DNA from: Streptomyces pristinaespiralis
GTDB lineage: Bacteria; Actinomycetota; Actinomycetes; Streptomycetales; Streptomycetaceae
Reading direction: 5' to 3'
NCBI RefSeq assembly: GCF_001278075.1
Contig: NZ_CP011340.1
Span: 124,001-188,000 of the forward strand
DNA length: 64,000 nucleotides
This document shows positions 27,738-60,947 of this stretch, piece after piece. The translations under genes and the position numbers were made by a program. The notes beneath the pieces were generated by a model. The model was not told the origin of the DNA. It ran no database searches and saw nothing but the letters and a program-made list of their open reading frames with translations. Within the stretch, counting starts at the first letter, position 1. The number at the start of each line of letters is the position of its first letter.

Positions 27738-27746
27738 GCGGGCCAG

Positions 27747-30846: not shown

Positions 30847-30862
30847 GCAACAGGCGTGCAAG
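30847..30862 (-). promoter_or_regulatory. Putative SARP box 1 (retinol saturase operon)
   Basis: On the minus strand the motif reads CTTGC-N6-GTTGC, two 5-base repeats spaced 11 bp. It lies 24-39 bp upstream of the operon start. It belongs to a set of seven identical-geometry sites in the cluster, and SARP activators bind direct repeats with this period. Confidence 0.7.
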
Positions 30863-30969
30863 GCGGGGCGGACGGCGGCGCTCCGGTCCCGGGGCGGGTG
30901 CGTGCGGGGCGTCGGGCGGGTCCGGTGCCCGGCGCGGCTTCGGCCCTGGGGGCGGCCGCGGGGCGGCGG

Positions 30970-31572
30970 TCAGGCGTCGGTGGCGGGGTGGGCGTCGGTG
31001 GCGGGGCGGGCGAGGAGGCGGGTGGTGAGTTCGTCGATGAGGGCGGGGGCACGGCCGTCGAGGACGGCCGGGACGGTGAGATCGTCGACGATCATGCCGT
31101 GGACGGCGAGGTAGAGCAGGACGACGTCGGTGCGGTCGCCGGGCAGCCCGGTGTCGAGGTGGAAGCGGATGTTCGTCTCGAGCTCCGCGGCGAGGCCCTT
31201 GTTGAGCTCGGCGCCCAGTTCGGGGCGGCGGGCGCCCTCCAGGCGCAGTTCGAGCATCGCCAGGTAGCTGGCGCGGTCGTTGTCCATGCGTTGGTGGACC
31301 TGGCGCAGCAGGCGGGCGACGAGGTGGTGGTCGCGCGGGGCGGTGAGCGTGTCGGCGAGCTCCGCGGGGTCGGGGGTCAGGCGCTCCCGGGTGCGCGACA
31401 TGATCTGGCCGAGCAGCTGGCCGCGGTGGGCGAAGTAGTTGGAGCAGGTGCCGACGGGGACGCCGGCCTCGGCGTCCACCGCGCGCAGGGTCAGGCCGCG
31501 CATGCCGTCGCGGGCCAGGACTTCGATGGCCGCGTCCAGCAGCGCGGTGCGGCGTTGTGGGTTCTGTCGCAT
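30970..31572 (-). CDS. TetR-family transcriptional regulator
   Basis: A 200-residue TetR-type protein with the helix-turn-helix LTLRAVDAEAGVPVGTCSNYFAHRGQLL at the N-terminus, then a divergent helical ligand domain. The C-terminal end carries a short direct repeat (ATDAHPATDA). It lies upstream of, and on the same strand as, the retinol saturase operon and probably regulates it or the cluster exporter in response to a pathway molecule. No operator was identified. Confidence 0.92.
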   Translation of the reverse strand: MRQNPQRRTALLDAAIEVLARDGMRGLTLRAVDAEAGVPVGTCSNYFAHRGQLLGQIMSRTRERLTPDPAELADTLTAPRDHHLVARLLRQVHQRMDNDRASYLAMLELRLEGARRPELGAELNKGLAAELETNIRFHLDTGLPGDRTDVVLLYLAVHGMIVDDLTVPAVLDGRAPALIDELTTRLLARPATDAHPATDA

Positions 31573-31734
31573 GTTCCTTCTCCGTCACGCCACCGGCATC
31601 ACATCGGGCGGAGTACTGCGCCTGGAGCGCTTTGCCAGCGTACAGGGCACTCCCCTCGGGCCCGGGGTCCGAGGGGCCGGGCTGGGGCGCGGGGTGCGGG
31701 GTGCGCCAGGTGCTCCAGGTGCGCCGGGCGGTGT

Positions 31735-32373
31735 TCAGGCGGTCGCGGCGAGGCGGGCGGGGCGCCGGACGGAACGGACGGTGGCGGGACACACCGCGGG
31801 GGCGGCGCTCTCGGCGTCCACCAGGGCGAGGAACTCGTCCCAGGCGAAGACCCGTTCCGCCCGGTGGGCGGTGATCGGCCCGTGGCACCACAGCACGGGA
31901 CGCGGGTGGCCGGCGTCGACGAGGGCGTCGCAGTTGCCGGGCGAGTCGTCGAGGAAGACGTCGGTGAACCGGCACGCCTTGTCGGCGGCGATGGTCAGCG
32001 AGTCGACGGGGAAGTCCCAGGCGGCCAGCCACGCCGCCGTGCGGCGCCAGGCCAGCGGCGCGGGTACGCCGGTGATCGCGCGGGCCGTCACGTAGTGCAG
32101 CCGGTGCCCGGCCCGGGCCAGTTCGCGGACCGCTTCGAGCGCGCCGGGCAGCGGGGCGCCCTCGGTGAACACCACGTTCTCGTGCACCCCCCGCCCGCAC
32201 AGCGCGAAGAACTCCCGCTCGCTCAGGCCCCACTGGTGCACGTACCAGTCCCACGACTCGGCCTTCGCCGAGCACGGGCGCCCCAGGACGCCCTCGGCGT
32301 AGCGGGCGACGACGTCCACGAAGGGGTAGAGCACCCCGTCGATGTCGAGACCGATGTCCAGTGTGCGGGTCAT
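31735..32373 (-). CDS. HAD-superfamily phosphatase, NT5C-like
   Basis: The 212-residue protein has an N-terminal D-x-D-x-V motif in LDIGLDIDGVLYPFVDVV, as in deoxyribonucleotidases, a threonine motif II in HYVTARA, and the late VFLDDSPGNCDALV acid pair. Such enzymes hydrolyse phosphate esters. Its promoter region holds a SARP-type repeat oriented towards it (32465-32480), so it belongs to the cluster regulon. It diverges from the PKS gene, and may remove phosphate from a ribosylated or glycosylated intermediate (inference). Confidence 0.85.
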   Translation of the reverse strand: MTRTLDIGLDIDGVLYPFVDVVARYAEGVLGRPCSAKAESWDWYVHQWGLSEREFFALCGRGVHENVVFTEGAPLPGALEAVRELARAGHRLHYVTARAITGVPAPLAWRRTAAWLAAWDFPVDSLTIAADKACRFTDVFLDDSPGNCDALVDAGHPRPVLWCHGPITAHRAERVFAWDEFLALVDAESAAPAVCPATVRSVRRPARLAATA

Positions 32374-32464
32374 GGCTGCCTCCTTGACCTCGTACCGCGT
32401 GGAGACGGCCGCCGGGTCCCCCGGGGGGACGGTGCCGCCCGTTCGGCATCGTGGGCCGCCGCGC

Positions 32465-32480
32465 GCAACGTCCCCGCAAG
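32465..32480 (-). promoter_or_regulatory. Putative SARP box 2 (HAD gene)
   Basis: Minus strand CTTGC-N6-GTTGC, 92-107 bp before the HAD start. Part of the seven-site set, on the HAD side of the PKS/HAD divergent promoter. Confidence 0.65.
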
Positions 32481-32520: not shown

Positions 32521-32536
32521 CTTGCACCGCGCTTGC
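32521..32536 (+). promoter_or_regulatory. Putative SARP box 3 (PKS gene)
   Basis: Plus strand CTTGC-N6-CTTGC, 64-79 bp upstream of the PKS start. Eight bases separate the second repeat from GGATTT, a possible weak -10, the spacing usual for SARP-activated promoters. Confidence 0.75.
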
Positions 32537-32599
32537 TCCCGGCGGGATTTGCTGGCCTGTGGACGCCGGGACCGTTCGCCAACGCCGAAAGGCAGATCT

Positions 32600-35500
32600 G
32601 TGACGCAGCAGCACGAACATGCCGAAGCCATCGCCGTCGTCGGGATCGGCTGCCGCCTGCCGGGCGGGATCGACACCCCCGACGCGTACTGGACGTTCCT
32701 GACCGAGGGCCGTGAGGCCGTCGGTGATCTGCCCGAGGGACGCTGGGACGCCTACCGGGGCCGGCCGGGCCTGGCACGTGCGCTGGCCGCCGCACCGCGG
32801 CGGGGCGCGTTCCTCGCCGACGCGGCCGGCTTCGACGCCGCGTTCTTCGGGATCACCCCGCGCGAGGCGGAGCTGATGGACCCCCAGCAGCGGCTCACGC
32901 TGGAGACGGGCTGGGAGGCGCTGGAGGACGCGGGGATCGCCCCGCACACCCTGGCCGGTTCGGACGCGGGCGTGTTCATGGGCGCCGGGTCCGACGACTA
33001 CGGGCGGCAGATGCTCGAGGACCTGCCCGCGATCGAGGCCTGGTCGGGGATCGGCGCGTCGCTGTGCGCGATCGCCAACCGCCTCTCCTACGTGCTGGAT
33101 CTGCGCGGGCCCAGCCTCGTCGTCGACACCGCCTGTTCGTCCTCTCTCGCCGCGCTGCACCTGGCCTGTCAGAGTCTGCGCGCCCGCGAGTGCACGCACG
33201 CGCTGGCCGGCGGGGTGCACCTGGTGGCCGCCCCGGGCCTGTCGATGGTCCTGGACGCCGCGGGGGCCACCTCCCGCGACGGGCGCTCCAAGTCGTTCGA
33301 CGCCGCGGCCGACGGTTACGGCCGCGGCGAGGGCGTGGGGGTCGTGGTCCTCAAACGGCTCTTTGACGCGCTCGCCGACGGCGACCCGGTACGGGCCGTC
33401 ATCCGCGGCAGCGCGCTGGCGCAGGACGGCCGCACGAACGGGATCATGGCGCCCAGCGGCGCCGCCCAGGAACGGGTGGTGCGGGCCGCGCTCGAACAGG
33501 GCGGCGTCGAGGCGCTGTCGGTGTCGTTCGTGGAGGCGCACGGCACCGGCACCCGGGTGGGCGATCCGGTGGAAGTGGGCGCGCTGGCCCGGGTGTTCGG
33601 GGTGGGACGGGCCGCGGATCGACCGTGTCTGATCGGGTCGGTGAAGGCCAACATCGGCCACCTGGAGGCGGGTGCCGGGGTCGCCGGGGTGATCAAGGCC
33701 GTGCTGGCGCTCCAGCACGGGGTGATCCCGCCGACCGCGAACGTCCATGAGCTCAACCCCGACATCGACTGGGCCGCCTCGGGGCTGGCCGTCCCGACGG
33801 AGCCGGTGCCCTGGCCCGAGCAGGACACGGTGCGGCGGGCCGGTGTGTCCGGCTTCGGCTACGGCGGCACCGTCGGCCACGTCGTACTGGAACAGGCCCC
33901 GGACGCGGCGGACACCGCCACGGCCGGTACGGGGAGGGGCGCCACGGCCGGTACGCGGACGGCCGGCGCGGCCGGCGCGGTGTCCGTCGGCGCGGCCGGG
34001 AACGGGGAGGCGGTGGGCGTGGACGCGGGCGCCGTGCGCACCGAGGGCCCGGACGGCGGCGTGGGGCCGGAGGGTGTCGCAGGGCCGGAGGGGGCCGCGG
34101 GGCCTGACGGTGCCGCGGGGCCGGGGCTGTTCGTGGTGTCCGGGGCGTCCGGGGACGATGTGCGGGCGCAGGCCGCGTCGCTCGCCGCCTGGCTGCGGGG
34201 CGAGGGCGCCGGCGCGCCCCTGGACGGTGTCGCGCACACGCTGATGGCCCGTCGCAGCCATGCCGTGCACCGGGCCGCTGCCGTCGCGGAGGACCACGGC
34301 GGGCTCGCCGCGGCGCTCGAGGTGATCGCCGGGGGCGGCACCGCGCCGGCCGCGGTCGCGGGCCAGGTCCTCCCCCGCGGCGGGGACGGTGCGGTGTGGG
34401 TGTTCTCCGGGCACGGCTCGCAGTGGGAGGGCATGGGCCGCGAACTGCTGGCCACCGAGCCGGTGTTCGCCGACGCGGTCGACCGGCTGGAGCCGGTCTT
34501 CGCCGAGGAGCTCGGCATCTCGCCGCGCCGGGTGCTGAGCGAGGGGCCGCTGGGCGGGACCGACCACGTCCAGCCGATGATCTTCGTGGTGCAGGTCGGG
34601 CTGGACGCCCTGCTGCGCGCCAAGGGCCTGACGCCGGCCGCCGTGGTGGGCCACTCGGTCGGCGAGATCGCGGCCGCGGTCAGCGCCGGGGTGCTCGGCC
34701 CGGCGGACGCCGCCCGGCTGATCTGCCGCCGCTCCGTCCTGCTGCGCCGGGTCATGGGGCGCGGCGCGATGGCGATGGCGGGCGCCGGGTTCGAGGCCGT
34801 CCAGGGCCTGCTGGGGGACCGTACCGACGTGGTCGCCGCGATCGCCGCCTCCCCCGCCTCCACCGTCGTCTCCGGCACGCCGGAGGCCGTCGAGGAGGTG
34901 TGCGCCCGTCTGGAGGCCGAGGACGTGATGGTGCGGCGGGTCGCCTCCGACGTCGCCTTCCACAGCCCGCAGATGGACCCGCTGCTCGAGGAACTCGCCA
35001 AGGCGGCCCACGGGTTGGAGGTGCGTGAGCCGCGGGTGCCGCTGTATTCGACGGCGCTGGAGGACCCGCGGTCGACCGCCGTGCGCGACGGCGCCTACTG
35101 GGCGGCGAACCTGCGCAACCCGGTCCGCCTGGAGGGTGCGGTGCGGGCGCTGGCGGAGGACGGGTACCGGGTGTTCGTCGAGCTGTCCGGGCATCCGGTG
35201 GTCACCCACTCCGTCGGCGAGACGCTGGAGGCGGCCGGTCTCGACGACGTGCTCGTGACCGCGACCCTGCGCCGGGAGCGGCCCGAGCGGGCCACCCTCC
35301 TCGCCCACCTGGGCGCCCTGCACTGCCATGGCGCCGCCGACGGTCTCGGCGTGCCGCACGGCCCGCTGACCGCGCTGCCCCGCCGGGCCTGGCAGCACGT
35401 GCCCTACTGGCGCACCCCCTCCTCCCAGGGTCCCGTGGCGGAGGAGCACGACACCGGGTCGGGCACCCTGCTGGGCGGGGAGGTGACATGGGCGGGCGCC

Positions 35501-38059
35501 GTGTCGCCGCGGCTGTGGCGCACCCGGCTCGACGAGGACTGCCGTCCCTACCCCGGCTCGCACCCCATCCACGGCGTCGAGGTCGTCCCCGCCGCGGTGC
35601 TGCTGAACACCTTCCTCGCCGCCGGCGGCACCGACACGCTTCAGGACGTGGCGCTGAAGGTGCCGGTCGCCGTCACCGGCGAGCTGGAGGTGCATGTGGT
35701 GCGCGACGACAGCGAGATCCGTCTCGCCTCGCGCCGCACCACCGCCGGTGCCGCAACCGCCGATCCTGCCGACGGCGCGGCGCAGGCGGGCTGGAGCACC
35801 CACACCACGGCGCGGCTCGTCCCCGACGGCACCGGGGGCCGTGATGTCGCGGAGGGTGCCGGTGACGACGGGTGGGAGGAGTCGGCAGCGGTGGAGCTGG
35901 ACCCCGGCGCGGTGAACGAGCGGCTGCACGCGGTCGGTGTCGCCGATGTCGGATTCCCCTGGCGGATCACCGAACTCGCCTCCTCACGCGGGCAATTGCG
36001 TGCCCGGGTGCGGCCCGCGGCCGACGGGGACCTCTCCCCCGCCCTCGCCCGCGCCTCGCTGCTGGACGCCGTCTTCTCCGTCGCCCCCCTCACGTTCCCC
36101 GCCGACGGCCGGCTGCGGATGCCCGCCGCCGTGCGGCGGGTACGGCTGCCGCTGGCTCTGCCCGAGGCCGTCGTCGTGCACATCAGCCCCTCCCCCACGG
36201 CCGGCGCCGACACCACCGACGCGGTCGTCCGCGACGAGGACGGGCACCTCCTCGGCACCCTCGAAGGGCTCGTGTTCGCCACCCTCGACGGCGGTGCGGG
36301 CAGCAGCCCCGGGCTCCCCCCGCAGCGCCTGACCCACACCCTCGGCTGGTCCGCCGCCGCACTCACCGCCGAGCCCCGTACCCGGCTGCGGACCCTCGCG
36401 CTGGTCGGCGAAGACGCCCCCGCCGGGCTCGCCGACGACGTCACCCGCGCGCTCGGCGGGGCCGGACTGCGCTGCCTGCACGCGAAGGACGCCGACGCGC
36501 TCGGCGGCCTGGTCGACGAACTCGGCCCGGGCGACGCGGTCGTCGTCCTGCCCGACGTGAGCGGCCCGCCGGCCGCAGCGGCGCGCCGCTCCGCCTGGCG
36601 GCTGGCGTCGACCGCCCAACTGCTGCTGGACCGCTGCGGATCCCTCCCGCCGCGGCTGTGGGCGCTGACCCGCGGCGCCTGGGAGGCCGCCGGCGACGAC
36701 GCGGTCGCGCAGAGCGCGATGCTCGGCCTGATCCGCATCGTGGCGGGCGAGCACCCGGAACTGCACGCCCGCGCCGTCGACCTCGACACGGGCACCCCGC
36801 CGGCTCTCCTCGCCGGGCCGCTGGCCGAACTGCTGCGCTGCGCACCGGAGGCGGACGTCTACCGGGTCGGCGAGGACGGCGTACGGGCCGCCCGGCTCAC
36901 CCCCCTCGTGCCAGACCCGGACGGCCAGGACGGCCCGAACGGCCGGGACACGGGCGTGGGCGTGTGCCGGGCGGACGGGACGTATCTGATCACCGGCGGG
37001 TTCGGCGCGCTGGGCCGACAGGTCGCCGACTGGCTGGCCGGCCGGGGCGCGCGGCGGATCCTGCTCGCGGGCCGCACCGCCCTGCCGCCGCGCCGCAGTT
37101 GGGCCGAGGAGAGCGACCCGGCCACCGTGCGGCGTATCGAGGCGGTCCGGCGGCTGGAGGCGCGGGGGGTGAGCGTGACGGGCGTGGCCGTCGACATCGC
37201 CGACGGCGCGGCGGCCCGCGCGGCACTGGACACCGACGCGCTCGGCCTGCCGCCCGTGCGGGGTGTGGTGCACGCCGCCGGAGTCCTCGACGACCGGATG
37301 CTCGTCGACCTCGACGAAGCGTCGCTGGAGCGGGTGCTCGCACCCAAGGCGGGCGGGGCGCTGGTGCTGCACGAGCTGTTCCCGCCCGGCAGCACCGACT
37401 TCTTCGTGCTGTTCTCCTCCGTCGGCTACCAGCTGGGCCTGACCGGCCAGTCCGGTTACGCCGCCGCCAACGCCTGCCTCGACGCCCTCGCCCGCCACCG
37501 GCAGGCGGCCGGCGACGCGGGCAGCACCGCCTACGCGTGGACGTCGTGGCGCGGCGCGGGCATGGCCGTCAGCGACTTCGTCGACGCCGAACTCGCCGAC
37601 CGCGGCAGCGGGTCCGTCGAGCCGGCCGACGCGTTGCGGGCCTGGGAGTACGCGCTGGACCGCGGTCCGCGGCCGTACGTGGCCGTCCTGCCGGTCACCG
37701 GCGCCACCGGCCTGCCCGTCCTCGGCGAACTGTCCGCGCCGGGCGACAAGGCGGCCCACGGGCCCGACGACGCGGCCGCGTTCCGGGCCGACGGGCTCAC
37801 GACGGAGGAGCTGGGCGCGCTGCTGCTGGCCGAGGTCGGCCGGCAGATCGAGGCCGAACTCGGCATCAGCGCCGAGCGGCTGGACGTCCACCGGCCGCTG
37901 ACCGAACTGGGCCTGGACTCGGTGATGACGCAGGTCCTGCGGCGCGGCCTGGAACGGCGGCTGGGCCTGAAACTGCCCGCCACCCTGGTGTGGAAGCACC
38001 CCACGGCCGCCGCCGTCGCCGCGTTCCTCACGACCCGGCTGGCCCCCTCCCCCGCGTAA
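32600..38059 (+). CDS. Iterative type I polyketide synthase, KS-AT-DH-KR-ACP (6-MSAS/naphthoate-synthase class)
   Basis: The 1819-residue multidomain enzyme has the following order. KS: C179 in DTACSSSLAALH, then HGTGTRVGD and KANIGHLEAGAG. A Gly/Ala-rich linker of about 75 residues (near 435-510). AT: S686 in VVGHSVGEIAA and AFHSPQMD, which points to malonyl. DH/product-template-like: H988 in HPIHGVEVVP. KR: GGFGALGRQVAD near 1465 and SSVGYQLGLTGQSGYAAANA. ACP: S1774 in LGLDSVMTQVL. No ER, MT or thioesterase domain is seen. Length and layout match bacterial iterative aromatic synthases such as ChlB1, NcsB and AziB, which make 6-methylsalicylate or naphthoate from malonyl-CoA. Which acid is made cannot be read from sequence. 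GTG 32600 follows GAAAGGC and a SARP box. Confidence 0.93.
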   Translation: MTQQHEHAEAIAVVGIGCRLPGGIDTPDAYWTFLTEGREAVGDLPEGRWDAYRGRPGLARALAAAPRRGAFLADAAGFDAAFFGITPREAELMDPQQRLTLETGWEALEDAGIAPHTLAGSDAGVFMGAGSDDYGRQMLEDLPAIEAWSGIGASLCAIANRLSYVLDLRGPSLVVDTACSSSLAALHLACQSLRARECTHALAGGVHLVAAPGLSMVLDAAGATSRDGRSKSFDAAADGYGRGEGVGVVVLKRLFDALADGDPVRAVIRGSALAQDGRTNGIMAPSGAAQERVVRAALEQGGVEALSVSFVEAHGTGTRVGDPVEVGALARVFGVGRAADRPCLIGSVKANIGHLEAGAGVAGVIKAVLALQHGVIPPTANVHELNPDIDWAASGLAVPTEPVPWPEQDTVRRAGVSGFGYGGTVGHVVLEQAPDAADTATAGTGRGATAGTRTAGAAGAVSVGAAGNGEAVGVDAGAVRTEGPDGGVGPEGVAGPEGAAGPDGAAGPGLFVVSGASGDDVRAQAASLAAWLRGEGAGAPLDGVAHTLMARRSHAVHRAAAVAEDHGGLAAALEVIAGGGTAPAAVAGQVLPRGGDGAVWVFSGHGSQWEGMGRELLATEPVFADAVDRLEPVFAEELGISPRRVLSEGPLGGTDHVQPMIFVVQVGLDALLRAKGLTPAAVVGHSVGEIAAAVSAGVLGPADAARLICRRSVLLRRVMGRGAMAMAGAGFEAVQGLLGDRTDVVAAIAASPASTVVSGTPEAVEEVCARLEAEDVMVRRVASDVAFHSPQMDPLLEELAKAAHGLEVREPRVPLYSTALEDPRSTAVRDGAYWAANLRNPVRLEGAVRALAEDGYRVFVELSGHPVVTHSVGETLEAAGLDDVLVTATLRRERPERATLLAHLGALHCHGAADGLGVPHGPLTALPRRAWQHVPYWRTPSSQGPVAEEHDTGSGTLLGGEVTWAGAVSPRLWRTRLDEDCRPYPGSHPIHGVEVVPAAVLLNTFLAAGGTDTLQDVALKVPVAVTGELEVHVVRDDSEIRLASRRTTAGAATADPADGAAQAGWSTHTTARLVPDGTGGRDVAEGAGDDGWEESAAVELDPGAVNERLHAVGVADVGFPWRITELASSRGQLRARVRPAADGDLSPALARASLLDAVFSVAPLTFPADGRLRMPAAVRRVRLPLALPEAVVVHISPSPTAGADTTDAVVRDEDGHLLGTLEGLVFATLDGGAGSSPGLPPQRLTHTLGWSAAALTAEPRTRLRTLALVGEDAPAGLADDVTRALGGAGLRCLHAKDADALGGLVDELGPGDAVVVLPDVSGPPAAAARRSAWRLASTAQLLLDRCGSLPPRLWALTRGAWEAAGDDAVAQSAMLGLIRIVAGEHPELHARAVDLDTGTPPALLAGPLAELLRCAPEADVYRVGEDGVRAARLTPLVPDPDGQDGPNGRDTGVGVCRADGTYLITGGFGALGRQVADWLAGRGARRILLAGRTALPPRRSWAEESDPATVRRIEAVRRLEARGVSVTGVAVDIADGAAARAALDTDALGLPPVRGVVHAAGVLDDRMLVDLDEASLERVLAPKAGGALVLHELFPPGSTDFFVLFSSVGYQLGLTGQSGYAAANACLDALARHRQAAGDAGSTAYAWTSWRGAGMAVSDFVDAELADRGSGSVEPADALRAWEYALDRGPRPYVAVLPVTGATGLPVLGELSAPGDKAAHGPDDAAAFRADGLTTEELGALLLAEVGRQIEAELGISAERLDVHRPLTELGLDSVMTQVLRRGLERRLGLKLPATLVWKHPTAAAVAAFLTTRLAPSPA

Positions 38060-49934: not shown

Positions 49935-49950
49935 GCAAGCGGGGTGCAAG
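49935..49950 (-). promoter_or_regulatory. Putative SARP box 5 (TrpC-like gene)
   Basis: Minus strand CTTGC-N6-CTTGC, 162-177 bp before the TrpC-like start, followed after eight bases by CGCTTT as a weak -10, as at the retinol saturase promoter. Confidence 0.65.
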
Positions 49951-50010: not shown

Positions 50011-50026
50011 GTTGCGCCGGCGTTGC
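50011..50026 (+). promoter_or_regulatory. Putative SARP box 6 (glycoside hydrolase gene)
   Basis: Plus strand GTTGC-N6-GTTGC, about 190 bp upstream of the glycoside hydrolase start. No clear -10 follows. Confidence 0.6.
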
Positions 50027-53017: not shown

Positions 53018-53392
53018 TCAGTACGCGGAGGAGACGTGCTCGTCGAGACTGTGGGTCTCGTCGCCGTTGAGCGCCGGGCTGAAGACGCACACGAGCCGCA
53101 GGTCCTCGTGGGGGCTGGCCACCAGGTAGTGGGCGTCGTGCTGGTCGAGCGCGTACATGCGGCCCGGGGTGATGGGGTGGGAGGTGCCGTCGAGCTCGAT
53201 GACCTCTCCGGAGCCGGCGATGCAGTAGCAGGCCTCGAGGTGGTTGCGGTACTCGAGGCGGGACTTGGTGCCGGCCAGGACGACGGTGTCGGTGAGCGAG
53301 TAGCCGACGCCGTCGGAGGCGAGGAGGAATCGGCGGCTGACTCCGTTGCCCCAGTCGACGGTCTTCACGTCCTCGATGTCGCGAATGATCAT
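53018..53392 (-). CDS. EctC-like cupin (ectoine synthase family homologue)
   Basis: The 124-residue protein aligns by eye with L-ectoine synthase: MIIRDIEDVK start, a SRRFLLASDGVGYSLTDTVV strand, EYRNHLEACYCIAGSGEVIELDG, PITPGRMYALDQHDAHYLVA and FSPALNGDETHSLDE. EctC cyclises an N-acetyl-diamine by dehydration. No ectA, ectB or ectD lies nearby, so this copy probably catalyses a different cyclodehydration within the pathway. ATG 53392 is taken over the TTG at 53398. It stands between the TrpD-like and acyl-CoA dehydrogenase genes. Confidence 0.87.
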   Translation of the reverse strand: MIIRDIEDVKTVDWGNGVSRRFLLASDGVGYSLTDTVVLAGTKSRLEYRNHLEACYCIAGSGEVIELDGTSHPITPGRMYALDQHDAHYLVASPHEDLRLVCVFSPALNGDETHSLDEHVSSAY

Positions 53393-53534
53393 GGTCAACT
53401 CCGATCTGGGTCGTGTGCGGCGAGGTGCCGCACGCTGGGAAGGACCCGGGGGTGGCCGGCGGCCACTGCTCGTGTCCCGGCCCCGCGGCCGGCGGCCGGC
53501 GGGGAGGCATGGGGGCGCCGCGGATGCGGCGGGT

Positions 53535-54581
53535 TCATCGGGCGGCGGGTGTGCCCGCCGCCGGGACGGGGCTGCGCGGTGCGGTGCGCAGCCGGTCGGC
53601 CAGGGCGCGGGCGGCGCCCGAGGCGACGGCCTCGCGGGTGGCGGCGAGTGCGCTCGGCCAGTCGCCCGAAGGGCCGGCGGCGAGGACGAGGGCCGCGGCG
53701 TTGAGGCACACGGTGTCGGTGGCGGCGGGGTGGGCGGTGCCGGCGAGGACGGCGAGGAAGTGGTCCGCGGCGTCGGCGGGCGGCACGGGGCGCAGGGCGT
53801 CGAACGTGCCGCCGGGGCCGGTGAGTTCGCCCGGCCGGAGCCGCCGGACGCTGCCGTCGTCGAGGTGGACGGTGTTGTCGGCGAAGCCGAGGAGTTCGTC
53901 GGCGCCCTGGTCGTTGGAGGTCAGCCAGATCCGCCGGCCGGTGAACGTGCGGGCGAGTTCGCGCAGCACGGGCAGCGGCATGGCGGCGCTGACGCCGGTG
54001 ACCTGGGCGGTGACCGGCAGGTCGGCGAGGAAGGGGCCGAGCGCGTTGAGGAAGCGGCCGAACGGTTTCATGCCGAGCGGTGCCACCGTGCGGGCCAGGC
54101 GGGTCAGTTCGGCCGGGTAGACGAACGGGCCGGCGAAGGCGATGCCGTGCTGTTCGAGCATCTGCTCGGTCTGCCGGTAGGAGGCGGTCAGGCGGATCCC
54201 GAGCCGTTCCAGCAGGTCGACGGAGCCGAGGCTGGAGGTGTAGGCGCGGGAGCCGGTCTTGACGACCCGTACGCCGGTGGCCGCGGCGGTGACGGCGGCG
54301 GCGGTGGAGATGTTGAAGGTGGCGGGTCCTCCGCCGGTGCCGACGATGTTGACGGTGCCGGGCCAGGGGCCGGGCGGGGGCGTGGTTCTGCGCTCCCGCA
54401 GGGACTCCAGCAGGGCGTCAAGGGTCTGGTGGCCGGGGAGGCTGGTGGTCAGGGAGGCCAGCAGGGCGACGGCCTGCTCCTTTTCGAGCGTGCCGTCACC
54501 GAGCCGGTCCCACAGTGATCTCCAGGTCTCGCGCTCGGTCACCGGGGCGCCTGCGAGCAGGCCGGTGAGCGCGGGATGCAT
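53535..54581 (-). CDS. TrpD-like (anthranilate phosphoribosyltransferase family) protein, divergent
   Basis: The 348-residue protein keeps the PRPP-binding core of AnPRT: VGTGGGPATFNISTAAAV and DQGADELLGF (the Asp-Glu pair). But the anthranilate-site motifs are changed: KTGSRAYTSSLGSVDLLERLG replaces the usual KHGNRA context (His to Thr, Asn to Ser), and LGMKPFGRFLNALGPF replaces the REL-GxRTIFN block. This points to a PRPP-dependent transfer onto an acceptor other than anthranilate. It starts 2 bp after the ACP stop, so it is tightly linked to the ACP and ligase. Loss of function is also possible, but the PRPP site looks intact. Confidence 0.87.
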   Translation of the reverse strand: MHPALTGLLAGAPVTERETWRSLWDRLGDGTLEKEQAVALLASLTTSLPGHQTLDALLESLRERRTTPPPGPWPGTVNIVGTGGGPATFNISTAAAVTAAATGVRVVKTGSRAYTSSLGSVDLLERLGIRLTASYRQTEQMLEQHGIAFAGPFVYPAELTRLARTVAPLGMKPFGRFLNALGPFLADLPVTAQVTGVSAAMPLPVLRELARTFTGRRIWLTSNDQGADELLGFADNTVHLDDGSVRRLRPGELTGPGGTFDALRPVPPADAADHFLAVLAGTAHPAATDTVCLNAAALVLAAGPSGDWPSALAATREAVASGAARALADRLRTAPRSPVPAAGTPAAR

Positions 54582-54583
54582 GG

Positions 54584-54841
54584 CTAGCTGTTCACCCCCT
54601 GGCGGGCGTCCTCGATGAAGGCGTCGATGGCGCGCACGCTGCGGAAGTTGTCGGGGTCCAGGTCGGCGTCGCCGACGGCGAGCTGGAAGTGGTCCTCGAC
54701 CCAGGCGATGAGCTTGAGCACGCCGAGGGAGTCGATGACGCCGTCGGAGAGCAGGTCGTGGTCGTCGGCAAGCTCGTGGACACCAAGGTCGGGCAGGAAT
54801 TCCTCGATGACGAACTTCTTGATGGTGTCGTTGTGGCTCAT
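54584..54841 (-). CDS. Acyl carrier protein
   Basis: An 85-residue carrier protein: MSHNDTIKKFVIEEFLPDL, with the phosphopantetheine Ser in LLSDGVIDSLGVLKLIAWVEDHF, and an acidic helix III. It would hold an acyl chain for the AMP-ligase, FabF-like ketosynthase, MaoC and oxoamine synthase of the same operon. Its ATG overlaps the ligase stop as ATGA and its stop is two bases from the TrpD-like start, so these genes are translated together. Confidence 0.93.
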   Translation of the reverse strand: MSHNDTIKKFVIEEFLPDLGVHELADDHDLLSDGVIDSLGVLKLIAWVEDHFQLAVGDADLDPDNFRSVRAIDAFIEDARQGVNS

Positions 54842-56172
54842 GACGTCCTTCCTTGGACTGGGATCGGTTCGTGCGGTCGGCCGGGCGCGGCGCGTCCGGC
54901 GCGTCGGGTGGTGGCGGGGGGCCGCCCTGCGGCGGCGGGCCGCCGGACGGCGGGGGCGGGCGTGCCGGTGCGGTGCCGGTTGCCGCGGACGGTGGTCCGG
55001 GTGTCGCCGGCGCGACCGGTCAGGTGGAGCAGGCCGTCGGCGTCGCGGCGGACCAGGTCGCCGGTGCGGAACCAGGTGCGGCCGTCGTCGGCGCCCAGCG
55101 GGTGGGTGGTGAAGGGGTCGCGGTGGGGGGCGCGGCCGAGGTAGCCGGGCGACTGGAAGGGGGTGGAGACGTACAGTTCGCCGGTGCCGGGGCCGTGGAC
55201 GGGTGTGCTGGGGGCGCCGATGAGGAGGGTCCGCACGCCGGGCAGGGGCCGGCCGACGGGGACGGGCGGGAAGACGGTGGCGCTGGTGTCGATCTCGTGG
55301 ACGAGGCTGGGGCTGGTCTCGGTGCAGCCGTAGAGGTTGTGCAGGCGTGCGCCGGGGAGCAGGTGCGGCAGCGCGGCGACGGTGCGGTCGGGCAGGGCGC
55401 GGCCGGTGAACACGACGTGGCGGACGCCGCTGAGGGTGGTGCCGGCGACGCGGGCGGCGTCGGTGAGCGGTGCGTGGAGCGTGGGGCGGGCGGCCACGAG
55501 GTGGATGTCGTGGCGGGTGAGGAGTTCCAGCAGGCCGGCGGCGTCCGCGGCCCGGCCCGGTTCGGCGAGGACGACGGTGGCGCCGGCGGCGAGCGGGGTC
55601 CACAGGTCGAGGAGGCTCGACGCGGCGGCGAGGTGGCCGGTGCCGAGGACGGTGGTGCCGGGGCCGATGCCGAAGCGGCCGGCGGCCCAGGTGGTGAAGC
55701 GGTCCACGGCCGTGCGTGCCAGCGGCACGATCCTGGGCGGTGCGGTGGTGCCGGATGTGGTGAACAGCAGGGCGGGCCGTTCGCCGGCGGGGCGGGGCAG
55801 GGCGTCGGCCGCCGACGGCGGCAGGCGGACGGGGCGTGGTTCGCCGGCGGGGACCAGGACGCGGGCGCAGCCTGCCTGGGCGGCCAGGTCCGCGAGCCGT
55901 CCGGCGGGGGCCGGGGAGGGCAGCAGGAGGGGGCGCTGGGACAGCAGGCCGGCCAGGACGAGGGCGATCGCGGCGGGTGAGGTGCGGGCGAGGACGCCGA
56001 CGGTGTCGTGGGGCGCCGCGCCCAGGACCGCGAGGCGTTCGCGTTCGCGGCCGGCCGCCTCGTACAGGGCGCGGTAGGTGGTGGGTTCGCCGCCGTGGAT
56101 CAGGGCGGTGGCGTCGGGGCGGTGGCGCACCTGGGTGAGGAAGCCGGCGACGAGGCCGGCGGGCGTGTTCAT
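54838..56172 (-). CDS. AMP-forming acyl ligase, C-terminally short
   Basis: The 444-residue protein has the adenylation core: LFTTSGTTAPPRIVPL (A3), NLYGCTETSPSLV (A5) and WFRTGDLV (A7), then GRAGDTRTTVRGNRHRTG where the hinge and small domain begin. The normal C-terminal domain with the catalytic A10 Lys is missing; after the hinge the sequence is about 45 residues of Arg/Pro/Ala. I looked for the missing domain in the other frames and did not see it. The enzyme may still adenylate weakly, need a partner, or only bind. It overlaps the ACP gene (ATGA) and likely loads that ACP. Confidence 0.87.
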   Translation of the reverse strand: MNTPAGLVAGFLTQVRHRPDATALIHGGEPTTYRALYEAAGRERERLAVLGAAPHDTVGVLARTSPAAIALVLAGLLSQRPLLLPSPAPAGRLADLAAQAGCARVLVPAGEPRPVRLPPSAADALPRPAGERPALLFTTSGTTAPPRIVPLARTAVDRFTTWAAGRFGIGPGTTVLGTGHLAAASSLLDLWTPLAAGATVVLAEPGRAADAAGLLELLTRHDIHLVAARPTLHAPLTDAARVAGTTLSGVRHVVFTGRALPDRTVAALPHLLPGARLHNLYGCTETSPSLVHEIDTSATVFPPVPVGRPLPGVRTLLIGAPSTPVHGPGTGELYVSTPFQSPGYLGRAPHRDPFTTHPLGADDGRTWFRTGDLVRRDADGLLHLTGRAGDTRTTVRGNRHRTGTPAPAVRRPAAAGRPPATTRRAGRAAPGRPHEPIPVQGRTS

Positions 56173-56987
56173 CGCAGGTGGGCCCAGCCGCTTTTGACGG
56201 CGGGTCCGCCCGGGGTGCGGCAGGTGAAGCGCACCACGGTGCGGGTGTCGTCGGGCTGGAGGGTGATGTCGAGGGGGACGCCGGGTGCCACGGGGGCGGA
56301 GAAGCGGCCGCCGAGGGCGTGGATGCGGGTGATGTCGCCGTCGGCGTAGCGGTCGGCGATCTCCTCCAGGGCGAGGGCGACCACGCTCATGCCGTGGGCG
56401 ATGACGGTGTCGAAGCCGGCGGCGCGGGCGGCTTCCGCGTCGAGGTGGATGGGGTTGAGGTCGCCGGAGGCGTGGGCGTAGGCGCGGATCGTTTCTTCGG
56501 TGAGGGTGTGGCGGGCGGTGGCCGGTTCGCCGTTCGGGCCGGCCGGGCCGGGGGCGGCGGCCGGGGGGATGTCGCCGAACGGTTCGGTGGCTCTGGCGCC
56601 GAGGAGCAGGGCGTGGGTGGTGAGTTCGGCGAAGGCGGTGCCGTCGTCGCCGGTGAGGCGGCTGCGTACGGCGATGCGGGTGCCGCGGGCCTCGCGGCGG
56701 GCGCCGGTGATGTCGAGCTGGACGGTGACCTGTTCGCGGGGCCGTACGGGCCGCTCGAGGCGGATGTCCTGGCCGAGGTGGACGACGGAGGTGCTCTCCT
56801 CCCCGGCGGTGAGGGCGCGCACGGCCTTGTCGGCGAGGGTGTGGGCGAGGACGAAGGTGTGCACGGGTGAGGCGTCGCGGCTCGCCGCCGGCGGGAGGCC
56901 GGGGCGGACGGCGGTGCGGTAGGCGTCGATCTCGGCGGCGCTCGCGGTGCGTTGCGCGGTGCGGGCGAGGGCGGGGGTCGTCGTCAT
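56169..56987 (-). CDS. MaoC-type (double hot-dog) dehydratase
   Basis: The 272-residue protein contains two hot-dog halves; the C-terminal one has the R-specific hydratase motif YAHASGDLNPIHLDAEAARAAGFDTVIAHGM with catalytic Asp and His. It would dehydrate a 3-hydroxyacyl intermediate, probably on the ACP of this operon, after reduction by the FabG at 62650. Its stop overlaps the AMP-ligase start at 56169-56172 (ATGA). Its ribosome site GGAGG at 56995-56999 lies within the left end of the inserted tnpB element, so that element contributes to expression. Confidence 0.88.
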   Translation of the reverse strand: MTTTPALARTAQRTASAAEIDAYRTAVRPGLPPAASRDASPVHTFVLAHTLADKAVRALTAGEESTSVVHLGQDIRLERPVRPREQVTVQLDITGARREARGTRIAVRSRLTGDDGTAFAELTTHALLLGARATEPFGDIPPAAAPGPAGPNGEPATARHTLTEETIRAYAHASGDLNPIHLDAEAARAAGFDTVIAHGMSVVALALEEIADRYADGDITRIHALGGRFSAPVAPGVPLDITLQPDDTRTVVRFTCRTPGGPAVKSGWAHLR

Positions 56988-56992
56988 CTGGT

Positions 56993-57068
56993 TACCTCCA
57001 TAGACACTCCGCCCTTCGGAGCGGCGGGGAAACGGACTCGTGCAGAGCAGGGCAGGAAGGGACGATTC
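56993..57068. repeat. 75-bp element copy A (left end of the IS, upstream of MaoC)
   Basis: The segment starting TACCTCCATAG, with the CTCCGCCCTTC hairpin arm and a GCAGGGCAGG tail, is about 75 % identical to copy B at 63410-63480. Both copies lie directly before the ribosome site of a minus-strand gene. Confidence 0.7.
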
Positions 57069-58373
57069 ACCACCGGAGCGGATCGTTGCCTGTGGCCAAC
57101 TGCGCGCAGGGGCCCACAAGTTGCAGTGCTAATTTGTGAGATGTGAAGGCCACCCCTGTGAAGCGGGCGTTCAAGTACCGCTTCAGCCCGACCGATGCGC
57201 AGGCAGCCGAGCTGTTGCGCACGTTCGGATGCGTGCGGAAGGTCTACAACATGGCGCTCGCTGCGCGTACTGAGGCGTGGACGCGGCAGCAGCGGGTCAA
57301 CTACAACGCCACGTCGGCGATGCTGACCGCGTGGAAAAAGACCGAGGATCTGGCCTACCTCAACCACGTCTCTTCCGTCCCGCTCCAGCAGTGCCTTCGG
57401 CACCTGCAGGCGGCGTTCAGCAACTTCTTCGCCAAGCGGGCCAGGTACCCGCGTTTCAAGTCCAGGCGAAAGTCCCGCGCCAGTGCCGAGTACACATCCA
57501 GCGCGTTCCGGTTCCGGGACGGGCGGCTGTACCTGGCCAAGATGTCCGAGCCGCTGGACATCTTGTGGTCCCGTCCCCTGCCCCAGGGTGCTCGGCCGTC
57601 CACCGTGACGGTCTCCCGCGACAGTGCTGGACGTTGGTTCGTTTCCATGCTGTGCGAGGACGCGAGCGTCAAGCCGCTCCCGCCGGCGGATGCGGCAGTC
57701 GGGATCGACGCTGGTCTCCATCACCTGGTGACGCTCTCCACCGGTGAGAAGATCTCCAACCCACGGCACGAACGCCGTGACCGTTCCCGTCTCGCCAAGG
57801 CACAGCGGGCACTGTCCCGCAGGTCCAGGGGCAACGGCACCAACCGGGCCAAGGCCCGGCGCAAAGTGGCACGGATTCATGCACAAATTGCGGACCGCCG
57901 CCGTGACGCCCTGCACAAACTGACCACTCGACTCGTGCGCGAAAACCAAACGCTCGTGATCGAGGACCTGACCGTGCGCAACATGGTCAAGAACAGCAGC
58001 CTCGCCCGTGCCATCAGCGATGCGGCCTGGTCCGAGCTGCGCACCATGTTGGAGTACAAGTGTGCCTGGTACGGGCGAAACCTGGTGGCCGTGGACCGCT
58101 GGTTCCCCTCCTCCAGGCTGTGCTCCGACTGCGGCGCCCTGCAGGGCAGGATGCCGCTGAGCGTCCGCACCTGGACGTGTGCCTGCGGCACGACCCATGA
58201 CCGGGACGTGAACGCCGCGAAGAATCTTCTGGCGGCCGGGCTGGCCGTGTCTGTCTGTGGAGCTGGTGTAAGACCTCAACGGGAGACCTCCCGGACGGGG
58301 CAGTCGGCAACGAAGCAGAAACCCTCACAGCGCGAGCCGTGAGAATCCCCTCCTTCAGGAGGGGAGAAGTCAA
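56996..58373 (+). mobile_element. TnpB-only insertion sequence (IS605/IS1341 type) in the biosynthetic operon
   Basis: The element lies between the KS and MaoC genes, opposite to their direction. The proposed left border follows TTAC (56992-56995), and a hairpin (CTCCG/CGGAG, 57008-57022) lies 12 bases in. The right border is a CCCCTCC/GGAGGGG hairpin (58347-58364) followed by AGAAGTCAA, ending in TCAA as in IS608-type ends. It carries only tnpB (57143-58342). The right end supplies the TGA stop of the KS gene (58370-58372, complement), and the left end supplies the MaoC ribosome site. Borders are inferred from known IS605 rules. Confidence 0.65.
57143..58342 (+). CDS. tnpB: TnpB (IS605 OrfB) RNA-guided nuclease-type protein
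   Basis: The 399-residue protein is a complete TnpB: N-terminal KRAFKYRFSPTDAQAAELLRTFGCVRKVYNMALA, RuvC-I Asp in AVGIDAGLHHLVTL, RuvC-II Glu in LVIEDLTVRNMVKNS, a zinc ribbon CSDCGALQ...CACGTTHDRD, and RuvC-III Asp in HDRDVNAAKNLLAAGL. TnpB proteins are guided by an omega RNA encoded at the element's 3' end, which would lie over the end of this gene and the right border. The reading direction is opposite to the host operon. GTG 57143 is the start. Confidence 0.93.
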   Translation: MKATPVKRAFKYRFSPTDAQAAELLRTFGCVRKVYNMALAARTEAWTRQQRVNYNATSAMLTAWKKTEDLAYLNHVSSVPLQQCLRHLQAAFSNFFAKRARYPRFKSRRKSRASAEYTSSAFRFRDGRLYLAKMSEPLDILWSRPLPQGARPSTVTVSRDSAGRWFVSMLCEDASVKPLPPADAAVGIDAGLHHLVTLSTGEKISNPRHERRDRSRLAKAQRALSRRSRGNGTNRAKARRKVARIHAQIADRRRDALHKLTTRLVRENQTLVIEDLTVRNMVKNSSLARAISDAAWSELRTMLEYKCAWYGRNLVAVDRWFPSSRLCSDCGALQGRMPLSVRTWTCACGTTHDRDVNAAKNLLAAGLAVSVCGAGVRPQRETSRTGQSATKQKPSQREP

Positions 58374-59605
58374 ACCGGCGCCACCACCAGGGCGGCGTTG
58401 TGGCCGCCGAAGCCGAACGAGTTCGACAGGGCGGGCCCGGAGGCGATGGTTCGGGGGCGGTGGTGGACCACGTCGATGTCCATTCCTGGCTCCAGGCGGT
58501 GGTGGTTGGCGGTGGGCGGTACCTCGCGTTCGCGCATGGCGAGGACGGCGGCGACGGCCTCGACGGCGCCGGCGGCGCCGATCAGGTGGCCGAGGACGCC
58601 CTTGGGTGCGGTGACCGGCGGGCAGCCGGTGCCGAACACCTTGGCCAGGGCGGCCGCTTCGGCCCGGTCGTTGTGGGGTGTGGAGGTGCCGTGGGCGTTG
58701 ATGTGGGCGATGTCCGCGGGGGTGAGGCCGGCGTCGGCGAGGGCGGCGGTCATGGCGCCGGCGGCGCCGGAGCCGTCGGGCAGCGGCATCGACAGGTGGT
58801 GGGCGTCGCAGGTGGCGCCGTAGCCGGCGACCTCGGCGTAGGGGCGGGCGCCTCTGGCGCGGGCGTCGTCGGCGCGTTCGAGGACGACGAAGCCGGCGCC
58901 CTCCCCCATCACGAAGCCGTCGCGGTCCGCGTCGAAGGGGCGGCTGGCCTGCTCGGGTTCGTCGTTGCGCAGGGACACGGCGTTGAGGTTGCCGAACCCG
59001 GCGAGGGTGACGGGGGTGAGGGTGGACTCGCAGCCGCCGGCGATGACCACGTCGGCGCGGTGGGTCTGCAGCAGCAGCCGGGCCTGGCCGATCGCGTCGG
59101 CGCCGCTGGCGCAGGTGGTGGCGATGGTGGTGGCGGGGCCGGTCCAGGAAAGGCGCATGGCGATCTGGGCGGCGGCCGCGTTGGGCATCGTCATCAGCGG
59201 CATCAGCGGGTTGACGCGGTGCGGGCCGTGTTCGGAGAAGTGGGCGGACTCCAGGTCGCTGGTGGCCCGGCCGCCGACCGCGTTGCCCACCACGACGGCG
59301 GTGCGGTGCGGGTCGGGGGCGGGGGCGCCCGCGTCGCGGTGGGCGGCGAGGGCGGCGGTGGTTCCGTACAGGGCGAACGGGTCCATCCGTCGGGCGTCCT
59401 TGGCGCCGACGAGGCCGACGTCGTCGAGTCCGCTGACGCGGCAGCCGATCCGTACCCGGTGGCGGTCGAGGTCGAGGTGGGTGAGGCGGGCGGCGGTGGA
59501 GCGGCCGGCGCGCAGCGCGGCCCACAGTGCGTCCGGGGTGCAGCCCGCCGGTGTGACCACGCCGATGCCGGTGATCACGACCGGGGGTGGGGTGGAGGTT
59601 GCCAT
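58370..59605 (-). CDS. FabF-like beta-ketoacyl-ACP synthase (KS II type)
   Basis: The 411-residue condensing enzyme has the full triad: Cys in TTCASGADAIGQ, His in NAHGTSTPHND, and His in KGVLGHLIGAAGAVEA. The fold motif FDADRDGFVMGEGAGF and the terminal SNSFGFGGHNAALVV are also present. No chain-length-factor partner is visible. It would extend or prime an acyl chain on the operon's ACP. Its stop codon is provided by the right end of the inserted IS at 58370. It starts 46 bp after the oxoamine synthase. Confidence 0.93.
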   Translation of the reverse strand: MATSTPPPVVITGIGVVTPAGCTPDALWAALRAGRSTAARLTHLDLDRHRVRIGCRVSGLDDVGLVGAKDARRMDPFALYGTTAALAAHRDAGAPAPDPHRTAVVVGNAVGGRATSDLESAHFSEHGPHRVNPLMPLMTMPNAAAAQIAMRLSWTGPATTIATTCASGADAIGQARLLLQTHRADVVIAGGCESTLTPVTLAGFGNLNAVSLRNDEPEQASRPFDADRDGFVMGEGAGFVVLERADDARARGARPYAEVAGYGATCDAHHLSMPLPDGSGAAGAMTAALADAGLTPADIAHINAHGTSTPHNDRAEAAALAKVFGTGCPPVTAPKGVLGHLIGAAGAVEAVAAVLAMREREVPPTANHHRLEPGMDIDVVHHRPRTIASGPALSNSFGFGGHNAALVVAPV

Positions 59606-59651
59606 GGTTGGTTTCCCGTTCCTGTTTCCCTGGGTGTACGGGCCGGCCGGG

Positions 59652-60869
59652 TCAGGCCGGGAGGATGCCGCACTCGCGGGCGGAGGTGAGGAACGCCTGG
59701 GCCGCGAAGTCGATGTCGGCCTCGGTGTGGCGGGCGGTGACCGCGATCCGCAGGCGGGCGAGGTCGTTGGGGACGGCGGGGGTGACCACGGGCAGGCCGA
59801 TGACGCCGTTCTTGCGGCAGGTGGTGGCCAGGTCGTAGGCGGCGTCGTCGGAGCCGGCGATGAGCGGCAGCACGGCGGTCTCGCTGTCCTGGGTGCGCAG
59901 CCCCTCGGCGTTGATGATCTTCCGCAGGCGGGCGGACTGGTGCTGGATGTGGGCGACGCGTTCGGGTTCGCGCTGCAGGATGCGCAGCGACTCGAGGGCG
60001 GCGGCGGCCTGGGCGGGTCCGAGGGCGGCGGAGAACAGGAAGGGGCGTGCGGCGTAGCGCAGGTGGCCGATGAGTTCGGCGGGGCCGGCGACCCAGCCGC
60101 CCATGGAGGGGATGGCCTTGGAGAGGGTGCCGAGTTTGACGTCGACCCGGGCCTGCCAGTCGAAGTGCTCCTCGATGCCGCGGCCGGTGGCGCCGATGAC
60201 ACCGAGGGCGTGGGCCTCGTCGACCATGAGGAGGGCGTTGTGCTCGTCGCAGACCTTGCGCAGTTCGGGCAGGGGGGCGATGTCGCCGTCCATGGAGTAG
60301 ACGCTGTCGACGATGACGAGGCGTACGCCGTCGGGGCTCGCGGCGCGCAGCCGGCGCTCGAGGTGGTCGACGTCGTTGTGGCGGAAGCGGGTGACGGTGG
60401 CGCCCGACAGGCGGCAGCCGTCGACGATGGAGGCGTGGTCGTACTTGTCGATGAAGACGGTGTCGCCGGGGCCGACGAGGCCGCCGACGGTGCCGGTGTT
60501 GGCGGCGTAGCCGGAGCCGAAGACCATGGACGCCTCGCGGTCCGCGAACCGGGCGACCTCCGCCTCGAGTTCCTCGTGCAGGGGTATGGATCCGGCCAGG
60601 GCGCGCACGCCGTGGTTGCCGGTGCCGTAGAGGTCGACGGCGGCCTTGGCGGCGGCGACGACACGTTCGTCGCCGGCCAGGCCGAGGTAGCTGTAGCCGG
60701 ACATCATGAGCAGCCGGCGGCCGTCGAGGTCGGCGTAGGCGCTGTCGCGTTCGACGGTGTATGCGACGAAGCTGTTGCGGCGGTCGGGTTCCCATTCGAG
60801 TGCCTGGACGCGGCGCTGTGTTGCCGCCAGCTTCGGCTCGAGGCGTTCCCATCCTCCAGATGCGTTCAC
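59652..60869 (-). CDS. Alpha-oxoamine synthase (AONS-like)
   Basis: The protein (about 405 aa) has the PLP fold: VFGSGYAANTGTVGGL, HASIVDGCRL, DEAHALGVIGATGRG and the Schiff-base Lys in LGTLSKAIPSMGGWVAG. Family members condense an amino acid (Gly, Ser or Ala) with an acyl thioester and lose CO2 (KBL, AONS, 5-aminolevulinate synthase, Fum8-type). With ACP and KS in the same operon, an acyl-ACP donor is likely. GTG 60869 is preferred because GAGGAG lies eight bases before it; GTG 60887 would add six residues. A SARP box lies 63-78 bp upstream. Confidence 0.9.
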   Translation of the reverse strand: MNASGGWERLEPKLAATQRRVQALEWEPDRRNSFVAYTVERDSAYADLDGRRLLMMSGYSYLGLAGDERVVAAAKAAVDLYGTGNHGVRALAGSIPLHEELEAEVARFADREASMVFGSGYAANTGTVGGLVGPGDTVFIDKYDHASIVDGCRLSGATVTRFRHNDVDHLERRLRAASPDGVRLVIVDSVYSMDGDIAPLPELRKVCDEHNALLMVDEAHALGVIGATGRGIEEHFDWQARVDVKLGTLSKAIPSMGGWVAGPAELIGHLRYAARPFLFSAALGPAQAAAALESLRILQREPERVAHIQHQSARLRKIINAEGLRTQDSETAVLPLIAGSDDAAYDLATTCRKNGVIGLPVVTPAVPNDLARLRIAVTARHTEADIDFAAQAFLTSARECGILPA

Positions 60870-60931
60870 GTGCGTCTCCTCATCCACTTCTCGGTTGGTC
60901 CAGGCGCGCCGTCCTTTCTATGCGCCGGGCC

Positions 60932-60947
60932 GCAAGGCGGGCGCAAC
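60932..60947 (-). promoter_or_regulatory. Putative SARP box 7 (oxoamine synthase operon)
   Basis: Minus strand GTTGC-N6-CTTGC, 63-78 bp before the start of the long operon, followed after nine bases by CATAGA, a good -10. It is the seventh site with the 11-bp spacing. Confidence 0.75.

Follow-up and report, generated by a model that had tools for sequence, protein, structure and literature searches.

In a 64,000-nucleotide stretch of the Streptomyces pristinaespiralis chromosome (hereafter the window; C1:124001-188000, where C1 is the single 8,532,592-base contig NZ_CP011340.1), direct-repeat boxes of the form STTGC-N6-STTGC (S = C/G) precede the dispersed operons of a biosynthetic gene cluster that continues past the window end. 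These boxes are very probably operators for the small SARP that the cluster itself encodes (61207-62097, plus strand), whose binding to them is predicted from sequence. The type of switch is already known, and the cluster SARP with its boxes is another case of it. Positions below are those of the window unless prefixed C1.

A scan of both strands of the window returned seven exact boxes (30847, 32465, 49935 and 60932 on the minus strand; 32521, 45002 and 50011 on the plus strand), which is the complete set and agrees with the seven sites of identical 11-bp spacing listed in the initial annotation. Its expectation of well under one chance match per strand was also borne out, since 100 dinucleotide shuffles of the window gave a mean of 0.44 exact matches and a maximum of 4, and none reached seven. 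As it had also proposed, all seven boxes are intergenic, judged by rough codon-composition gene calls, and all point toward a nearby gene start, that of the glycoside hydrolase being the least certain. The seven are nevertheless only part of the cluster set, which comprises nine boxes spanning C1:154847-190102: two more are found some 2.1 kb beyond the end of the window, at C1:190052 on the minus strand and C1:190087 on the plus strand (L032:2052 and 2087; 66052 and 66087 in window numbering). When spacers from 0 to 24 were compared over the 37-kb core, N6 gave nine matches and every other spacer none or one, placing all nine pentamer pairs on the 11-bp period of the SARP operator and promoter class.

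Published SARP promoters, as described in PMC10936776, have direct repeats spaced by 11 or 22 bp, the 3' one of which lies 8 bp from the -10 element. At seven of the nine cluster sites, T followed by A or T (TW) occurs exactly 11 nt after the box, and any other offset scores at most four; the element thus starts 11 nt from the end of the pentamer and 9 from the end of the heptamer STTGCNN, in agreement with the spacing of about 8 bp in this promoter class. The -10-like sequence previously placed 8-11 bp beyond the second repeat is therefore present and more sharply positioned than was stated, at exactly 11 nt in five of the seven window sites: TTTGCT at 30847, 32521 and 49935, TATACC at 45002 and TAGAAA at 60932. 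The two boxes outside the window have TTTCCT and TTCGAT at the same distance. Among 45 distinct boxes of relatives, TW falls at offset 11 in 30 (next best offset 8), and after removal of the close relative G173 in 23 of 35 (next best 7). With a weight matrix built from 35 exact boxes of other species, all nine sites are among the ten best-scoring positions in 124 kb; this matrix was trained on boxes chosen with the same exact pattern and so tests flanks and -10 only, and the scores of 49935 (15.4), 32465 (12.3) and 32521 (10.2) lie within the range of the maxima of ten shuffles (7.5 to 21.7).

Specificity across the genome resides in the combination of box and phased -10. The pattern box+N11+TW, which was chosen after the sites had been seen, has 14 matches in the genome, every one of them within the two copies of the cluster, compared with 4 for a control consisting of the same pattern read backwards. 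Of the 34 exact boxes in the genome, 18 are the nine cluster boxes, every one of which is repeated in the right chromosome arm; 20 belong to ten mirrored sites, including C1:100350, and 14 lie elsewhere. The mirrored positions sum to the sequence length + 1 at the two chromosome ends, indicating that the window is part of a terminal inverted repeat; mirrored BTAD matches suggest that this repeat reaches at least 412 kb. The two arms are letter-identical over the 60 kb of C1:148001-208000; the cluster is therefore present twice. Counted without duplicates, nine boxes fall in 35 kb and 15 across the rest of the genome. None of these 15 outside sites (C1:100350 and the 14 others) has TW at the phased position, and all were excluded as regulon members on that ground; two of them, L015 and L018, have three A/T letters there, and 11 of the 15 lie in long coding-like frames by a rough score. 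The possibility that the motif is equally frequent elsewhere or in coding DNA, named beforehand as grounds for rejecting the regulon, is thus not what the genome scan found for the phased form. In relatives, box+N11+TW matches fall inside the cluster in 7 of 10 cases in G173 (control 2), 4 of 6 in G198 (control 4) and 4 of 4 in G170 (control 3).

The gene at 61207, already read as a SARP, encodes 296 amino acids as an open reading frame and matches the Pfam BTAD model above its cut-off (3.2e-28). Its nearest solved chain is AfsR (8hvr, 3e-15), whose residues 45-288 align across both the winged helix and BTAD; membership in the SARP family is given by the BTAD match together with this alignment, and the winged-helix Pfam models gave no match. 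The C-terminal half of the SARP-LAL class (PimR, SanG, PolR) is lacking, the protein being 296 amino acids long with BTAD only. Relative to AfsR, the window SARP has serine at the T88 position and retains the equivalents of R87, S91, R92 and R94. In an alignment of 24 SARPs, 3 are cut short and 21 cover the recognition helix (G116/L068 and L087/L089 both counted); the recognition-helix segment reads LRSVVSR in 19 of the 21 and LRSLVSR or LRSLMSR in the other two. L089 bears the label Rhodococcus rhodnii but matches Kibdelosporangium aridum (L087) at about 94% identity across most of the locus, which raises a question of labelling or contamination.

Comparison with relatives was anchored on the TrpC-like gene of the cluster, for which we searched 199 genomes (source included). 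Some TrpC-like match was found in 196 of the 199 genomes, mostly the primary TrpC, and relatives at 49% identity or more in 12 genomes other than the source, in 34 named loci and in 11 plasmid records, three of which were opened; G177 was left out of the further comparison. Wherever the SARP gene lies in the stretch examined, it is divergent from the oxoamine-synthase operon that box 7 (60932) precedes in the window. After duplicates were dropped, 23 loci (source included) from seven genera (Streptomyces, Spirilliplanes, Kibdelosporangium, Actinophytocola, Actinocrispum, Actinoplanes and Actinosynnema) contained both genes and the intervening gap, the genera being those of the record labels. 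Each of the 23 gaps has a box directed toward the operon; 18 of these boxes are exact, and 5 have one mismatch. The chance rate of a one-mismatch box, estimated from the window expectation, is about 0.03 per gap strand; of the five gaps with a one-mismatch box, G198, L079, L082 and L065 have their -10-like letters about one base off, and L127 has them at 11 nt. Conversely, the exact box is absent from the stretches examined of eight diverged cassettes (G103, G122, G047, G183, L094, L095, L096 and L126), in which no SARP orthologue was seen either, the shorter stretches leaving room for one farther away; L096 has a single SARP-like match at 26%. An exact box is present somewhere in L064, L069, L072, L073, L076, L077, L080, L081 and L093, whose stretches end before the SARP, and no box was seen in L074, L075, L078 and L084, whose stretches end short of the SARP/operon gap.

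By analogy with AfsR, two SARP protomers would bind side by side on the two repeats, over a poor or absent -35 element, and would hold region 4 of sigma-HrdB and RNA polymerase in place. According to PMC10936776, the AfsR dimer binds in this way to a pair of 11-bp repeats that cover a poor -35, with sigma region 4 held by the dimer, and its afsS promoter (PDB 8hvr, 8jke, 8k60) shares with our sites the 11-bp direct repeats, a suboptimal -10 and a related DNA-binding domain. AfsR differs in being a large SARP with NOD and TPR and in its repeat, CGTT(T/C)ATCGNN, whereas the window encodes a small SARP acting, as we propose, on STTGC repeats at many targets in one cluster. The operators of PimR, SanG and PolR, as given in parts of PMC5930380 and PMC3367932, are CGGCAAG heptamers with 4-bp spacers, hence an 11-bp period, and GCAAG is CTTGC on the other strand; these regulators are SARP-LAL proteins, however, and the PimR site has three repeats and no -35 overlap. 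Cluster-situated small SARPs such as FdmR1 and Aur1PR4 act on promoters of their own clusters through heptameric repeats 8 bp from the -10 (excerpts of PMC7040171). Their repeat core differs from STTGC. ActII-ORF4 and RedD are further cluster-situated small SARPs. The window SARP falls in this class by its gene, which is divergent from the box 7 operon, and by the confinement of box+N11+TW to the cluster in the source genome.

Such a switch would turn on jointly the amine-oxidase-like flavoprotein-P450-NmrA operon, the HAD gene, the polyketide synthase (PKS)-KASIII-transglutaminase operon, the pyridoxal phosphate (PLP)-dependent decarboxylase-like-GNAT-DUF6875 operon, the TrpC-like-hydrolase pair and the operon running from oxoamine synthase through FabF, MaoC, adenylation (A) domain, carrier protein, TrpD-like and EctC-like proteins to the RedW-like dehydrogenase. 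Past the window it would also reach two further operons, methyltransferase-flavin monooxygenase-FabG and carrier-KASIII-FAD oxidase-SRPBCC-hydrolase, which the two outside boxes precede. An orphan biosynthetic cluster of several actinobacterial genera thus gains a predicted switch made up of a single activator, a sharply defined operator and putative transcription start sites; if this small SARP is over-expressed in a laboratory Streptomyces, the cluster should become active and its product might come to light. Pathway genes, the Trp-pathway-like cassette included, can also be recognized by their place in the regulon, and the operator and recognition helix, kept across genera, make a tidy data set for studying DNA recognition by SARPs.

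Several observations weigh against this interpretation. The exact box as such is not enriched genome-wide, its 34 matches being fewer than the 57 of the reversed pattern, and with up to one mismatch allowed the window enrichment is gone (16 matches compared with 12.3 expected), so that inside the source genome only exact boxes carry our claims. The share of exact boxes that lie inside the cluster is 10 of 27 in G173, 6 of 27 in G198, 5 of 22 in G170 and 1 of 11 in G005, a weaker concentration than in the source; box+N11+TW totals only 6 against 4 for its control in G198, and in G005 is absent against 2 for the control. The hexamer at 32465, CACGAT, is weak and no better than those of two of the 15 outside sites, and that at 50011, TGCCCC, is no -10, in the source as in G173. 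The AT-richest hexamer includes offset 11 at 8 of the nine sites and in 37 of the 45 relatives' boxes, mostly as ties (5 and 29), and is the sole best offset in no more than 3 and 8, respectively; when ties are not credited to offset 11, the -10 phase count falls but the odds stay where they were, because neither the TW phase nor the gap conservation is affected. The loci compared are related by descent and so are not independent. In the window scan no exact box lies directly upstream of the MFS, Vat-like acetyltransferase, multicopper oxidase, TetR or SARP genes, which for the SARP gene itself means that it is probably controlled from above. Finally, a BTAD search of the genome found 20 places, 15 distinct after the arms were paired; given the 14 besides the cluster SARP, three of them weak, we assign the binder from its adjacency to the boxes and its co-inheritance with them.

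The lack of enrichment of the loose pattern and the excess of the reversed control would fit a chance clustering of the boxes in GC-rich DNA, read selectively, but we find this hardly credible in view of seven exact boxes where the shuffles average 0.44, nine in 35 kb with 15 elsewhere, the N6 spacer specificity, the cluster-only box+N11+TW and the conservation of all 23 gaps. It is also very unlikely that the repeats are leftover copies of a duplicated promoter or a dispersed repeat with no regulatory role: three boxes do have in common CTTGCAC....TTGC and a TTTGCT at the -10 place, and the divergent pairs could stem from duplication, yet flanks and spacers differ from site to site, and other genera keep box and phase in the orthologous gap with varying letters in between. 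More serious, if still improbable, is that the operators are real and are read by a different OmpR-type winged-helix activator, since direct repeats of 11 bp are also bound by such proteins (AfsR, PhoP or one of the other SARPs that the genome encodes). The number of BTAD places speaks for such a reader, as does the AfsR site at afsS, two direct repeats that PhoP recognizes too (PMC10972967, in excerpt). The core TTGC, however, is unlike the AfsR repeat given in the same excerpt; confinement of the phased box to the cluster is not what a global regulator would leave; and the box accompanies an adjacent SARP gene in 23 of 23 gaps and is missing, in its exact form, from the eight cassettes with no SARP orthologue seen and from a second cassette of the source genome (C1:276-283 kb, no exact box across 36 kb). 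Control by the cluster's own SARP is the reading we retain.

The regulon proposed earlier is well supported for the boxed operons, apart from its glycoside hydrolase arm, and gains the two operons past the window; its genes were assigned with Pfam and NCBIfam profiles, and transcription starts were predicted by the convention of +12 from the first base of the -10-like hexamer. Box 1 (CTTGC-N6-GTTGC, 30847-30862, minus strand; kept in G173), with TTTGCT at 30830-30835, precedes genes for an amine-oxidase/desaturase-like flavoprotein, a P450 and an NmrA-like protein (26904-30823, minus); the first gene, called a retinol saturase in the initial annotation, has a Pfam match to Amino_oxidase, and by the +12 convention its transcript would be leaderless, the predicted start coinciding with the ATG at 30823. 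Box 2 (CTTGC-N6-GTTGC, 32465-32480, minus), with the weak CACGAT at 32448-32453, also 11 nt after the box, faces an HAD/NT5C-family gene (31735-32373, minus), and box 3 (CTTGC-N6-CTTGC, 32521-32536, plus), with TTTGCT at 32548-32553, a type I PKS (32600-38059, plus; KS-AT-KR-ACP, with a DH-like region under its cut-off) followed by KAS III-like and transglutaminase-like genes (38166-39952, plus). Near the PKS, at 40308-40895, lies a Vat/CatB-like hexapeptide acetyltransferase gene (246 bits; curated Vat cut-off 300) with possibly a self-protection or tailoring role. Box 4 (GTTGC-N6-GTTGC, 45002-45017, plus), with TATACC at 45029-45034, precedes genes for a PLP-dependent decarboxylase-like protein (45102-46451, plus) and GNAT-like and DUF6875 proteins (46724-47916, plus); the orthologous box is found with TATACC in G173, G170, L065, L067, L069, L070 and L125. 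We rejected a one-mismatch candidate at 23197 on the plus strand, although TATAGC follows it by 11 nt: the site falls in an inverted repeat (23188-23213), also present in G173, whose perfect 9-bp arms make it look like a hairpin that mimics a SARP box.

Box 5 (CTTGC-N6-CTTGC, 49935-49950, minus; kept in G173), with TTTGCT at 49918-49923, precedes the TrpC-like gene (49072-49773, minus) and an alpha/beta hydrolase gene (48024-49088, minus). Box 6 (GTTGC-N6-GTTGC, 50011-50026, plus; also in G173) points toward an MGH1-like glycoside hydrolase gene (PF22422; 50212-51810, plus), and its function is doubtful because it has no phased -10. The usual arrangement in relatives, found in 45 of 48 rows with duplicates counted, is a RedW-like gene followed on one strand by the TrpC-like gene, often with a TrpF-like gene between. 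In the source and G173 the glycoside hydrolase gene stands between these two, and a separate box with TTTGCT serves the TrpC-like gene; judging from gene order, this gene seems to have stayed in the regulon when the operon broke.

Box 7 (GTTGC-N6-CTTGC, 60932-60947, minus) has TAGAAA at 60915-60920, where other genera have TAGAAA, TAGAAC, TACAAC or TAAAAC. Its operon, on the minus strand, encodes a BioF-like alpha-oxoamine synthase (59652-60887), a FabF-like ketosynthase (58370-59578), a MaoC-like dehydratase (56169-56987), a stand-alone adenylation domain (54838-56172), a carrier protein (54584-54841; annotated as phosphopantetheine-binding in relatives), a TrpD-like phosphoribosyltransferase (53535-54542), an ectoine-synthase-like cupin (53018-53398) and a RedW/PigA-like acyl dehydrogenase (51842-52987). 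A 1.38-kb insertion (56988-58368), absent in G173, separates the FabF and MaoC genes and carries an OrfB_IS605/TnpB-type gene on the opposite strand (57143-58342, plus); it may cut the downstream genes off from the SARP promoter.

The regulon thus includes a cassette in which TrpD- and TrpC-like enzymes, joined in relatives by TrpF- and TrpA-like ones, accompany an A domain and a carrier protein. Neither Trp-like enzyme of the window reaches its equivalog cut-off (TrpC-like 133 bits against 284, TrpD-like 155 against 199), and in L127 the TrpA-like protein passes (136 against 102) and the TrpF-like one fails (67.5 against 216). The TrpC-like protein aligns with indole-3-glycerol phosphate synthases and shares with them K and E positions that we take to be catalytic. 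The cupin exceeds the cut-off of the ectoine synthase subfamily NF009806 (144 bits against 128), but its carrier-protein and Trp-like setting differs from that of ectoine genes, so the score assigns only a candidate function. A comparison with prodiginine-type systems, drawn partly from general knowledge, finds the same kinds of RedW/PigA dehydrogenase, A domain, carrier protein and oxoamine synthase in one operon, whereas the window dehydrogenase scores 365 and 361 bits, under the RedW and PigA cut-offs of 650 and 500, and the window has extra TrpC/TrpD-like and EctC-like genes, relatives also TrpF/TrpA-like ones. Tentatively, and with more doubt than confidence, we suggest that the regulon drives a secondary tryptophan-like pathway on a carrier protein, in which the A domain and carrier, together with the RedW-like enzyme, would supply an anthranilate-like (beta-enamino-acyl) unit from which TrpD/TrpF/TrpC/TrpA-like enzymes, with phosphoribosyl pyrophosphate, would build a pyrrole-type ring. 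Literature searches confined to open PMC articles recognized no published account of the cluster or its product.

In many actinobacteria (L125, L127 and L064-L097), a single operon combines TrpD, TrpF, TrpC and TrpA paralogues with genes for a free-standing A domain, a carrier protein, an ectoine-synthase-like cupin and a RedW-like dehydrogenase. The order in annotated relatives is A domain-carrier-TrpD-like-TrpA-EctC-RedW-like-TrpF-TrpC, and TrpA-like and TrpF-like genes are both in the cassette with the TrpC-like gene in 41 of the 48 rows of relatives; both are missing from the cassettes of the window and of G173. The second cassette of the source genome, about 90 kb from the first (L128 12305-19044), reads A domain-carrier-TrpD-TrpA-EctC-RedW-transglutaminase-TrpF; its TrpA-like and TrpF-like products are 56% and 52% identical to those of L127, the TrpA-like match containing one TGA, and a TrpC-like search gave no match in it. 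The two cassettes are thus complementary in TrpC-like versus TrpF-/TrpA-like content, and the TrpF-like gene of G173 is 92% identical to that of the second cassette.

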